Assembly (NCBI RefSeq): GCF_028649655.1
Contig: NZ_JAQSLN010000003.1
Coordinates: 930,001 to 994,000, forward strand
DNA: 64,000 bases
Source of the DNA: Halobacteriovorax sp. GB3
Lineage (GTDB): Bacteria > Bdellovibrionota > Bacteriovoracia > Bacteriovoracales > Bacteriovoracaceae
Direction of reading: 5' to 3'
The notes under the pieces are model-generated. The model worked only from the letters and a program-made list of their open reading frames with translations. It made no database searches and had not been told where the DNA came from. Made by a program: the position numbers and the translations under genes. Below are positions 25,877-30,411 of this stretch, in pieces. The stretch's first letter is position 1. Each line of letters starts with the position of its first letter.

Positions 25877-26908
25877 TTAGTATCTCAATCGATTTGAAAT
25901 CTTCACTAAGCTCAGCATAATGGGTACTTCAATTAAGACACCTACAACTGTCACCAACGCCGCACCAGAGTTTAATCCAAAAAGCGCAATGGCCACAGCA
26001 ACAGCAAGCTCAAAGAAATTACTAGCACCTATCATAGAACCTGGACTTAAAATGCAGTGTGGAAGATTCAACTTTTTTCCAATACCCCAAGTTATTAAGA
26101 AAATAATGTAGGTCTGGATCGTTAAAGGGATAGCGATCAAGAAAATATGAAAAGGATTTTCAGTTATTTTTTCTCCCTGAAAGGCAAAGAGAAGAATCAA
26201 TGTTGTCAGCAAGGCGATGATTGAAACTGGCTTTAGCTTGGCCATAAATACTTCTTTAAACCAAATCTCCCCTTTTATGTGAATGAGAGTTTTATTGGCA
26301 AAAAGGCCCGCTAAAAGAGGGATGACAACAAAGATAACGACGGAAGAAATCAATGTATCAAAAGGGATCGTCACATTTGTTACACCAAGAAGAAATTTAA
26401 CGATGGGAATGAAGGCAATTAAGAGAACAAGGTCGTTAATGGCAACTTGTACTAGTGTATATTCGGGATCACCCTCAGTGAGATAAGACCATACAAAAAC
26501 CATGGCAGTACATGGAGCTGCTCCAAGAAGAATCGCACCAGCAATATATTCACCAGCAAGCTCTGGGTTTAAATAGGCCCCATAGAGTTTAGAAAAAAAG
26601 AGCCACGCAAAAAAGGCCATAGTAAAAGGCTTTATTAACCAGTTGATAACTAAAGTTAGGATGAGTCCTTTAGGGTTTTTACCGACTCCTTTAACTGAGC
26701 TAAAATCAATTTGGACCATCATTGGAAAGATCATAAGCCATACAAGAATTGCAACCGGAATATTTACCGTTGCAATATTCATCTCACTTAAAAACTCAAT
26801 TGATTGACCAAGAACTTTACCAAGTACGATACCGACAACAATACATAAAGCGACCCATAGACTTAAATAGCGTTCAAAAAAGCCCATTTTCTTTTCTTCA
26901 CTACTCAT
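25877..26908 (-). CDS. acr3: Arsenite efflux transporter, ACR3 type
   Basis: A 343-residue inner-membrane protein with about ten transmembrane segments. The ACR3 signature LGAAPCTAMVFVWSYLTEGDP is complete, with the essential Cys133, and the C-terminal SPGSMIGASNFFELAVAVAIALFG motif is also typical. It pumps As(III), and in some members Sb(III), out of the cell. The ATG at 26908 has GGATGATAATC upstream and overlaps the arsC stop by eight bases, so it is the last gene of the merR-arsC-acr3 operon. Confidence 0.95.
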   Translation of the reverse strand: MSSEEKKMGFFERYLSLWVALCIVVGIVLGKVLGQSIEFLSEMNIATVNIPVAILVWLMIFPMMVQIDFSSVKGVGKNPKGLILTLVINWLIKPFTMAFFAWLFFSKLYGAYLNPELAGEYIAGAILLGAAPCTAMVFVWSYLTEGDPEYTLVQVAINDLVLLIAFIPIVKFLLGVTNVTIPFDTLISSVVIFVVIPLLAGLFANKTLIHIKGEIWFKEVFMAKLKPVSIIALLTTLILLFAFQGEKITENPFHIFLIAIPLTIQTYIIFLITWGIGKKLNLPHCILSPGSMIGASNFFELAVAVAIALFGLNSGAALVTVVGVLIEVPIMLSLVKISNRLRY

Positions 26909-27335
26909 GATTATCATCCATATACTTTTCAATATTAGTAACAAATTCTTTAATTTCATCTCGAACTCTGCGATAGATCGTCAAGATTTCTTCTTCATTA
27001 TCAATTGATTGACTAAGCTGAGGAGGATCATCAAAGCCTACGTGAATAATTTTTCCTCCAGGAAAATAAGGGCAATTCTCATGAGCATCGGAACAAACAG
27101 TAAATACATAGTCCATTTGAACTTCTGGCAATTCCTCTGTCGTATTTGAACAATGATGACTAATATCGACTCCGGCCTCATTCATAACCTCAATAGCACG
27201 CTTATTGAGATCATGTTTTTTTGTTCCTGCCGAAAAGAAATTATATTCACGACCTTTTAATGACTTTGCCCAACCTTCGGCCATTTGCGATCGACAAGAA
27301 TTCCCTGTACAAAGAAAGAGAATATTTTTCTTCAT
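26901..27335 (-). CDS. arsC: Arsenate reductase, thioredoxin-linked (LMW-phosphatase fold)
   Basis: A 144-residue enzyme reducing arsenate to arsenite. The three redox cysteines are Cys9 in CTGNSCRS (P-loop), Cys81 in FTVCSDAHENC and Cys88, at the same spacing as in the pI258 ArsC. The P-loop Arg15 and DDPP near the C-terminus complete the phosphatase-like site. The ATG at 27335 has AGGAG at the right distance. It overlaps the merR end by ten or fewer bases and feeds arsenite to the downstream ACR3 pump. Confidence 0.95.
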   Translation of the reverse strand: MKKNILFLCTGNSCRSQMAEGWAKSLKGREYNFFSAGTKKHDLNKRAIEVMNEAGVDISHHCSNTTEELPEVQMDYVFTVCSDAHENCPYFPGGKIIHVGFDDPPQLSQSIDNEEEILTIYRRVRDEIKEFVTNIEKYMDDNHE

Positions 27336-27343
27336 AACTTCTC

Positions 27344-27754
27344 CTAACATTTAGAATCAAAACAATCACTCACCCTACAACAAGCCTTAATATCAGGGCC
27401 AGCGTCACAGGCGTGAATAATTTTTTCTAGTGATTTTTTCATTTTCTTCAATGACTCGATCTTTTCTTTGACCTCTAAAAGCTTTTTATTCGCCTTTTTA
27501 GATACATGAGCACAAGTTGCACTGGTATTTTGATCTAAAAGAAGAAGATCTTTGATTTCAGCTAGAGTGAAGCCAAGTTCTTGGGCCTTCTTAATGAAGC
27601 TGATTTTTGAAATATATTGATTTGGATAAACACGAAAGGCCCCAGCTTTTGTGGTCGGTCGTTTTAAAAGACCTTTTCTCTCGTAGAAACGAATGGTTTC
27701 GACATTTACATTTGAGGCATCGGCAAGCTTGCCAATTGTAAGTGGTTGAGTCAT
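27344..27754 (-). CDS. MerR-family metal(loid) regulator with MerR-type cysteine triad
   Basis: About 136 residues: an N-terminal winged helix (LTIGKLADASNVNVETIRFYERKGLL), a long dimerisation helix and a metal site. Counting from ATG 27754, Cys81, Cys116 and Cys125 fall exactly one position before the Hg(II) ligands Cys82, Cys117 and Cys126 of mercury MerR, and three more cysteines follow (126, 131, 136). It lies first in an arsenic operon behind a mer-like operator. It could sense mercury or, since As(III) also takes three thiolates, arsenite. The start at 27754 coincides with the predicted transcription start, suggesting a leaderless message; an in-frame ATG at 27760 exists. Confidence 0.88.
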   Translation of the reverse strand: MTQPLTIGKLADASNVNVETIRFYERKGLLKRPTTKAGAFRVYPNQYISKISFIKKAQELGFTLAEIKDLLLLDQNTSATCAHVSKKANKKLLEVKEKIESLKKMKKSLEKIIHACDAGPDIKACCRVSDCFDSKC

Positions 27755-27760
27755 GCTCAT

Positions 27761-27792
27761 AATATACACTCCGTACTATGGTACGGAGTCAA
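27761..27792 (-). promoter_or_regulatory. MerR-type promoter and operator of the arsenic operon
   Basis: On the minus strand: -35 TTGACT (27792-27787), a 20-base spacer and -10 TATATT (27766-27761). Inside the spacer is a palindrome with nine-base arms ACTCCGTAC-N4-GTACGGAGT (27768-27789), very like the mer operator core CCGTAC-N4-GTACGG. Long spacers with a centred palindrome are the hallmark of MerR-activated promoters. The start codon ATG 27754 lies seven bases past the -10 box. Confidence 0.9.
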
Positions 27793-27819: not shown

Positions 27820-28119
27820 CTATCTTTCGTACTCAGAAATAATTGTCGTGGCTTCAACCGAAGACTCAAAAAACTTTGATTTCACAACGAGATAATCAGG
27901 ATGTGAGAAAAAGTTGTTCATATTTTCTCGATCAGCAAAATAGATTGCAAAAACTCTATTAATAGGACGGGATTCTTCATTTTTCAATGTCTCTGAGACT
28001 TTAAAGTCGTAACGAAATCCACCACCATGATTTTCTAGAATAGGGGCCATTTCATTTCTATACTGTGCATAGACATCATCATTTTTAACTTGAAGTCCTA
28101 CGATCATTTCATAACTCAT
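27820..28119 (-). CDS. DUF1330-family small protein
   Basis: A 99-residue cytoplasmic protein with a ferredoxin-like alpha/beta barrel pattern: IVGLQVKNDDVYAQYRNEMAPIL, then RVFAIYFADRENMNNFFSHPDYLVVKSKFFESS. This fits DUF1330 (dimeric alpha-beta barrel). The function is unknown. It starts with a Shine-Dalgarno AAGGAAAAA site and overlaps the DJ-1 family gene end by 11 bases, so they are co-translated. Confidence 0.75.
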   Translation of the reverse strand: MSYEMIVGLQVKNDDVYAQYRNEMAPILENHGGGFRYDFKVSETLKNEESRPINRVFAIYFADRENMNNFFSHPDYLVVKSKFFESSVEATTIISEYER

Positions 28120-28867
28120 TACTTTTTTCCTTTAAAATTTCACAGTATTTTGTAGCAAACGTATGAACATCCCCTGGCCATCGAGATGAGATGAAATGTT
28201 CATCGACAACACAAAAACCGCACAGAGACTCTTGAGTATCTCGAGTGATCGCCATAGGCCCTAATTCAAATTGACCCTTTGACTTGAGGCTCCTCTTAAC
28301 TTCATCCTGCACATACTCTGGATATGTTCGATAATAATTGCCAAGCCAAAGCCCTGTCATGGCCCAGGCGATGAATTCTTGGTCTTTTCTTAGACTTGTT
28401 ACTCGCTTATTAAAAAGAATACTTCTGCCATCCTCACGTTTTGATCTCGAAGCTAAGACAACCCCATGGCAAATAGCTCCAATGGGCTTTTTTTGAACAT
28501 CAAACTCTGCTGTTAACGTTTGTAACTTATTAGACTCAAGATATTCAACCATGCCTTGAGCATGACCACCACCAAGAATGATTCCATCGAAATCACAGGA
28601 TACAATATCATCCCATTTTTTAGGATTTAAAAACTCAGATGAACTCTCCATTTCAAGGTAGGCATTAATCCCATTTTCATCGGCCATAAGTATTTTCTTC
28701 CAAATACCTAAACCTTCACCTGTAAGCATACGCTTGTCTGCCATTGCTCTCTTTCCACTAGGTGTAGCAAATGTAACGTCATGGCCTTGAGTTTTAAGGA
28801 TTTTCCATGAGACTGCAACTTCTGTTGGATCAAAGTCATTATGAGGAATTGGAATTAGAATTTTCAT
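28109..28867 (-). CDS. DJ-1/PfpI-family protein
   Basis: A 252-residue protein with class I amidotransferase-like fold. The nucleophile elbow is GAICHGVVLASR with the Cys following Ile-C-H-G, and the upstream GIILGGGHAQGMVEYL carries the glutamate/glycine loop of this family. Members include glyoxalase III-type, protease-like and chaperone-like proteins (Hsp31); the exact role is not clear. It precedes a DUF1330 gene, overlapping by 11 bases. Confidence 0.85.
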   Translation of the reverse strand: MKILIPIPHNDFDPTEVAVSWKILKTQGHDVTFATPSGKRAMADKRMLTGEGLGIWKKILMADENGINAYLEMESSSEFLNPKKWDDIVSCDFDGIILGGGHAQGMVEYLESNKLQTLTAEFDVQKKPIGAICHGVVLASRSKREDGRSILFNKRVTSLRKDQEFIAWAMTGLWLGNYYRTYPEYVQDEVKRSLKSKGQFELGPMAITRDTQESLCGFCVVDEHFISSRWPGDVHTFATKYCEILKEKSNEL

Positions 28868-29502: not shown

Positions 29503-29955
29503 TCATCTTAATATCAGTCTCGAGGCTAAATAAAGTCCTAACCCATAAGAAACGTGAGCATTAAATGATTTTAACCAAATAATGAACTTCGCGGGCATTT
29601 TACTCGCCCCAATCCCCATTCCAAAAGCAGGCTGCATTATAAAAAGTGGAGCAATAAGAGTGATAACTCCAATAGCGAGACAGTGAATAAGAGAAGGGTT
29701 TTGCTGCCAAAGAAGTAGCACCTTGGCAAAGATGATTCCTATGGCGTAATGAGTGAAAGTACCTAGAAATTGCTCATGCTTATAAGCTGAACTTTGAAAA
29801 ATGCTTTCATGAAAGTATTTTAGATTTTTAAAGTGATAAACCCAACGACCTACAAATCGGTAATCTAGTCCAGAAATAGAGAAAATCTTTTTTAAAGTCA
29901 GTGCCCATAGGTCCATGAATAAAGTTGCCAAAATACCAATAAAAATGAATGCCAT
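29503..29955 (-). CDS. DUF2938-family membrane protein
   Basis: A 150-residue protein with about four transmembrane helices. The FIGILATLFMDLWA start, the THYAIGIIFA segment and the PAFGMGIGASKMP stretch are those of DUF2938. The function is unknown. It is divergent from a MerR regulator and sits under a MerR-type promoter, so it is likely the regulator's target, possibly a stress-linked membrane protein. Confidence 0.85.
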   Translation of the reverse strand: MAFIFIGILATLFMDLWALTLKKIFSISGLDYRFVGRWVYHFKNLKYFHESIFQSSAYKHEQFLGTFTHYAIGIIFAKVLLLWQQNPSLIHCLAIGVITLIAPLFIMQPAFGMGIGASKMPAKFIIWLKSFNAHVSYGLGLYLASRLILR

Positions 29956-29992: not shown

Positions 29993-30023
29993 ATGATACA
30001 ACTTGAAGTTAACTTCAAGTCAA
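29993..30023 (-). promoter_or_regulatory. MerR-type promoter with perfect 20-bp palindrome
   Basis: Minus strand -35 TTGACT (30023-30018), 19-base spacer, -10 TATCAT (29998-29993). The perfect palindrome at 30001-30020 (ACTTGAAGTT and its mirror) occupies the spacer and part of the -35 box. A spacer of 19 bases with a centred palindrome marks a MerR-activated promoter and places the DUF2938 gene under control of the divergent MerR-family gene. Confidence 0.85.
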
Positions 30024-30039: not shown

Positions 30040-30411
30040 ATGGATATAACAGAGCTTTCAAATCAAACTGGACTCGCATCTTCCAAAATACGTTATTACG
30101 AAAAGATGGGACTCATCAAATCAGCGGGAAGAAAAGGCCTAAAAAGAACCTTCAAAGAAGATGTCATCTATACTCTCGCTTTCATCCGTCTCTCTCAATC
30201 TTGCGGCCTAAGTCTAGAAGAGATCAACAAGGTACTAAAAAGAAATCAAAAGATTAACTTAGATAAAGAGACGATTGATAATAAGGTTAAAGAAATTGAT
30301 TCTCAAATAAGTGAACTAAAGAGAATGAAAAAGACATTAAATCATTTAAAGAGTTGTCCCAAAAAGTATCACTTTGACTGTGATCAATTTAGGACGTTAT
30401 TGATGAAGTAA
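30040..30411 (+). CDS. MerR-family transcriptional regulator
   Basis: A 123-residue regulator with the MerR winged helix (DITELSNQTGLASSKIRYYEKMGLI) and a long coiled dimerisation helix ending in a short tail with two cysteines (SCPKKYHFDCD), which could hold a metal or redox ligand. The ATG has AGAGG upstream. It is divergent from the DUF2938 gene with their shared operator between them. Confidence 0.93.
   Translation: MDITELSNQTGLASSKIRYYEKMGLIKSAGRKGLKRTFKEDVIYTLAFIRLSQSCGLSLEEINKVLKRNQKINLDKETIDNKVKEIDSQISELKRMKKTLNHLKSCPKKYHFDCDQFRTLLMK

Follow-up and report, generated by a model that had tools for sequence, protein, structure and literature searches.

A MerR-family regulator proposed to control arsenic resistance genes in Halobacteriovorax and other Bdellovibrionota

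Arsenic sensing in bacteria has been described almost entirely via ArsR repressors. ArsR only represses and dissociates, whereas MerR proteins stay bound and activate. The promoters of the MerR family typically have spacers of 19-20 bp (PMC9909328, a review with no mention of 'arsen'). In the MerR of Tn501, Hg is bound via Cys82', 117 and 126, and the proline of a CP motif matters for activation (PMC5027573). We found no published MerR-type arsenic regulator in a search of open-access papers (weak evidence of absence), and by occurrence count 'MerR' is absent from an ars-gene survey.

Here we describe a regulator gene from Halobacteriovorax sp. GB3 that lies in a stretch of 64,000 nucleotides, called the window below. 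With ArsR/SmtB proteins it shares its place as the first gene of an arsC-acr3 operon and a proposed sensing of trivalent arsenic by cysteines, but the protein family and mechanism of ArsR/SmtB are unrelated to MerR. With the Hg(II)-responsive MerR of the Tn501/Tn21 type it shares the fold, three cysteine columns and a CCGTAC dyad in an over-long spacer; it differs in standing ahead of arsC-acr3, in its sequence (41-48% identity, below the equivalog cut-off), in having CR rather than CP, in the extra Cys131 and Cys136, and in falling outside the Tn501 clade. Based on sequence comparison, we predict that the protein is the autoregulated, As(III)/Sb(III)-responsive MerR switch of a merR-arsC-acr3 operon, with a probability of roughly 80%.

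The merR-arsC-acr3 operon and its promoter

The operon and its control region consist of the following features.

27761..27792, minus strand: over-long promoter, with -35 box TTGACT (27792-27787), a 20-bp spacer and -10 box TATATT (27766-27761)
27768..27789, no strand assigned: operator, a perfect 9+9 bp dyad ACTCCGTAC-N4-GTACGGAGT (exact; N4 is CATA)
27344..27760, minus strand: MerR-family regulator, 138 aa from ATG 27760 or 136 aa from ATG 27754
26901..27335, minus strand: arsC, thioredoxin-linked arsenate reductase (TIGR02691, 135 bits, E 1.5e-39)
25877..26908, minus strand: acr3, arsenite efflux permease (TIGR00832, 397 bits, passing the cut-off of 282.8)

The three genes run merR, arsC, acr3 on one strand with a single promoter ahead, and place an arsenite efflux pump and an arsenate reductase under local control, as in other ars operons. 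The arsC product scores below the curated TIGR02691 cut-off (174.3 bits), yet it is clearly of that family and contains a CTGNSCRS loop and a C-x6-C pair. The family models and the shared strand bear out the earlier note, which had placed arsC and acr3 downstream of the MerR gene. No ArsR-like ORF (ArsR/SmtB, HTH_5) was found among the scanned neighbours of the operon, and the one of two HTH_5 matches in the genome with a listed position is about 178 kb away. In this operon the MerR protein stands where most ars operons have ArsR. Just upstream of the operon, on the same strand but outside the operator, are genes for a DUF1330 protein and a PfpI/DJ-1-like protein (27820-28867).

The operator dyad fills the 20-bp spacer, the arrangement that characterizes the MerR superfamily (a dyad operator in a spacer of 19-20 bp), and its core CCGTAC-N4-GTACGG is matched exactly at 27771-27786. 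CCGTAC half-sites are also found in real mer promoters of Pseudomonadota plasmids, and the operator can therefore be called mer-like, as the earlier note had proposed. The pattern CTCCGTAC-N4-GTACGGAG has a single site in the 3.6 Mb genome when up to three mismatches are allowed, whereas a control pattern has five on each strand. The ATG at 27754 is about 7 bases past the -10 box (27754-27766), and the same is seen in many relatives; because this ATG lies about where transcription is expected to start, the regulator mRNA is probably leaderless.

The window contains a second MerR-family gene (30040-30411, plus strand) opposite a gene for a DUF2938 membrane protein (29503-29955, minus strand). 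Between the two, the minus strand has TTGACT-19 bp-TATCAT and, at 30002-30023, the palindrome CTTGAAGTTAACTTCAAG; the DUF2938 gene is therefore probably under the control of this second MerR.

The regulator has a winged helix-turn-helix at the N-terminus, a long dimerisation helix and a short effector end, as is usual for the MerR superfamily, and the Pfam models MerR_1 and MerR-DNA-bind both match above cut-off. Its top NCBIfam match is TIGR02051 (MerR, 131 bits), but it misses the cut-off of this equivalog for Hg(II)-responsive MerR (150.85). The AlphaFold2 model (pLDDT 88) has a MerR-type layout. Its dimerisation helix spans residues 83-119 of the 138-aa form and lies between Cys83 and Cys118, which are Cys81 and Cys116 in the 136-aa numbering used below. 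Cys131 sits in a short final helix, and the terminal ~18 residues are less certain (blocks of 65-68).

Relatives and their gene neighbourhoods across the phylum

We searched 192 genomes of the phylum, 82 of which have a relative of the regulator at an E value of 1e-15 or better, and analysed 98 regulators by clustering the ORFs around them and assigning names to the clusters with family models. Of the 98, 55 have arsC, acr3, arsI or arsH directly behind them on their own strand; three more, at arsD-arsA, at an aquaporin gene with arsC and at arsI-arsC-acr3, were relabelled by hand, bringing the ars-linked total to about 58. These loci comprise more than 12 different gene sets (including arsH alone, arsD-arsA and two acr3 subtypes of ~80% and ~35% identity) whose sole common theme is arsenic. 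Given this wide variation, what stays constant is the link to arsenic, not a single gene block that moves as a unit.

The same pattern is seen from the side of the pump gene: a MerR of this subfamily lies within 4 kb of acr3 at 44 of 75 acr3 loci in the 192 genomes. A listed ArsR is present at at least 13 of the 75, with both regulators at only one listed locus, and among the listed ArsR genes the two types are thus almost mutually exclusive at acr3. The comparison of MerR-arsC-acr3 neighbourhoods that the earlier note called for finds a linkage that recurs phylum-wide, and this conservation supports its claim that a MerR-type regulator with a mer-like operator drives ars genes.

The dyad also precedes nearly all ars-linked relatives, and the promoter spacing is 20 bp in 43 of 57. 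Allowing at most one mismatch, the 22-base operator matches 51 distinct sites across the 192 genomes, compared with one for a reversed control, and 47 of the 51 abut a MerR gene (MerC-linked in one case). The remaining four are ahead of arsI-arsC-acr3 (locus L208), ahead of a second arsC (L046), ahead of a VOC gene that is weakly ArsI-like (L207; 28 bits, cut-off 116), and among cation and copper genes (L206). At L208 (G107:C5) the operator occurs twice, ahead of merR and again directly ahead of arsI-arsC-acr3, and a 193-aa gene without an NCBIfam match has been inserted behind merR. This second site at L208, the site at the second arsC of L046, and the conserved operator-promoter that precedes the entire operon at about 50 loci make it highly improbable that merR is a hitch-hiker from a mer island with no control of the ars genes, even though genomes often have mer and ars modules close together.

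Our tree was built on 144 columns and leaves many forks open. It groups the window protein with two ars-linked proteins (support 100/100) inside an ars clade of 18 rows (95/88). One member of this clade is from Nitrospirota (L129); its gene has the same operator and lies next to arsI. Classical plasmid Hg MerRs fall outside. The phylogeny proposed as a check in the earlier note puts the window protein within the ars-linked set. In the tree, the ars-linked proteins fall into three supported sets, and a MerC-linked clade lies among these sets; a single ars clade was not rejected (AU p 0.61). Given this nesting, specificity may, as judged from the sequences, have shifted repeatedly, or in a less clear-cut way than we describe. 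A genome-contig scan with alignment of the C-terminal halves, used to find relatives beyond the phylum, places the labelled relatives from other phyla mostly at mer genes.

After the ars-linked proteins, the closest relatives are the MerC/MerT-linked MerRs of the Bdellovibrionota. They have the same promoter architecture, but adjoin merC, merT or merA, mostly lack Cys131 and mostly have CCGTAGT or CTATA half-sites. At several mer-linked loci (L060:973-1671, L111, L054 and others) the gene after the regulator encodes a DF-family domain fused to a MerC domain, often accompanied by a small thioredoxin-like protein, apparently an uncharacterised mercury module.

Cysteine patterns and candidate inducers

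The six cysteines of the regulator (81, 116, 125, 126, 131 and 136) were confirmed on the ORF translation as the earlier note gave them. That note had matched Cys81, Cys116 and Cys125 to the mercury ligands of MerR. The spacing is a literal match to Cys82, Cys117 and Cys126 of Tn501, but the aligned third residue is Cys126. We rejected Cys125 as the third Hg-like ligand, since the Tn501 Cys126 column contains Cys126 of the window protein when about 100 relatives are aligned. Reading this spacing as specific to mercury went too far, as ZntR, PbrR and the Hg-type references have the same columns. The further suggestion that extra cysteines tune specificity gains support for Cys131 but none for Cys125, a residue that few members of the family have.

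We counted cysteines by column in 58 ars-linked, 28 mer-linked and nine reference proteins. Among the ars-linked proteins, a cysteine is present at column 81 in 54, at 116 in 57, at 126 in 37 and at 131 in 54. Cys131, within a [DE]CF motif, occurs in 54 of 58 ars-linked proteins (four lack it), 5 of 28 mer-linked proteins and none of the nine references; these counts cover related sequences, and a Fisher p-value gives no independent support. The following Phe132 is invariant (58/58). Across columns 81, 116, 126 and 131, the ars-linked patterns are CCCC (29), CC-C (20), -CCC (4), CCC- (4) and C--C (1), and all but one protein keep at least three thiols.

One alternative is that the regulator has remained a mercury sensor, with Hg(II) inducing arsenic resistance by cross-regulation. 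Among characterised proteins, Hg(II) MerRs are the nearest (~41-48% identity), all three Tn501-type ligand columns are filled in the window protein (Cys81, 116 and 126), and the half-sites are those of real Pseudomonadota mer promoters. In Pseudomonas pseudoalcaligenes, ars proteins increase upon exposure to Hg, and arsR is a predicted target of a MerR (PMC10433974). Against this, the genome encodes neither MerT nor MerC, and no MerA above cut-off, the regulator is followed by arsC and acr3 in place of the mer genes controlled by Hg(II)-responsive MerR, and the clade is linked exclusively to arsenic genes across the phylum. One classical Hg ligand is absent from 24 of the 58 ars-linked relatives, which keep three thiols, and Cys126 of the window protein is followed by arginine (CR), not by the proline found in Tn501 (CP). 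Ten genomes hold separate ars-linked and mer-linked paralogues. Where both promoters of a pair are readable, the ars-linked copy has TTGACT-CCGTAC and most mer-linked copies have TTTACT with CCGTAGT or CTATA half-sites; the exception, G039, has CCGTAC at both, and several mer-linked copies in the ten genomes have no convincing promoter. We tried TIGR02051 scores as a clean separator of Hg and As regulators and rejected them: ars-linked proteins score 122-137 bits and plasmid Hg MerRs 169-179, but some mer-linked proteins (130-156) are also under the cut-off. Taken together, a mercury sensor appears unlikely. The earlier note had left a choice between recruitment with a change to As(III) and induction of the ars operon by mercury. 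The sequence data strongly favour recruitment, because the partners are arsenic genes only, the genome has no mer genes, paralogues coexist with mostly different operators, and the Hg ligands have been lost in many relatives.

Another alternative, equally unlikely, is a sensor of several thiophilic ions (Cd, Pb, Zn, As and Sb) with the ars operon as one general outlet. The cysteine set is compatible with ZntR- and PbrR-like sites, the top PDB matches of the model are CadR, PbrR and Tn501 MerR, and ArsI/CadI proteins are partners in some relatives. ZntR, CadR and PbrR have cysteines in the same columns (Cys79/82, Cys114/117 and Cys124/126) and the same overall structure. They are, however, less similar to the window regulator (102-107 bits with their NCBIfam models, compared with 131 for MerR), have other targets and fall at the outgroup side of the tree. 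The recurring direct partners of the ars-linked proteins are arsenic genes only, and the operator is unique in the genome, with no copy at its metal pumps in a whole-genome scan allowing up to three mismatches.

A proposed arsenic switch

Under the arsenic reading, a dimer of the regulator would sit on the dyad in the 20-bp spacer and hold the promoter off when no inducer is present. As(III), and probably Sb(III) too, would bind a three-thiol site across the subunits, made up of Cys81 of one subunit and Cys116 together with Cys126 and/or Cys131 of the other. Binding would under-twist the DNA and so make the -35 and -10 boxes usable for RNA polymerase, which would lead to production of the arsenate reductase and the arsenite pump. 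We infer trivalent arsenic as the ligand from sequence, as well as the cysteines that bind it; Cys131 is a plausible ligand. The predicted activation step follows the known MerR mechanism by analogy. The window protein could still bind Hg(II), because Cys81, Cys116 and Cys126 are all kept.

We also lean, with less confidence, towards a wider claim. It holds that this phylum-wide MerR branch is a true arsenic sensor with a relocated tris-thiolate As(III) site (Cys81', Cys116 and Cys131, with Cys126 optional), that it activates by DNA distortion, and that it has taken over from ArsR in many Bdellovibrionota and in one or more lineages of Nitrospirota.

An arsenic-responsive MerR, if true, would be an activator-type arsenic switch. 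It would also be a natural case of a metal sensor that changed its element without changing its fold or operator, and would offer a convenient base for building low-background arsenic biosensors. The natural series of cysteine patterns makes the discrimination of Hg, Zn, Cd, Cu and As by MerR proteins directly testable.
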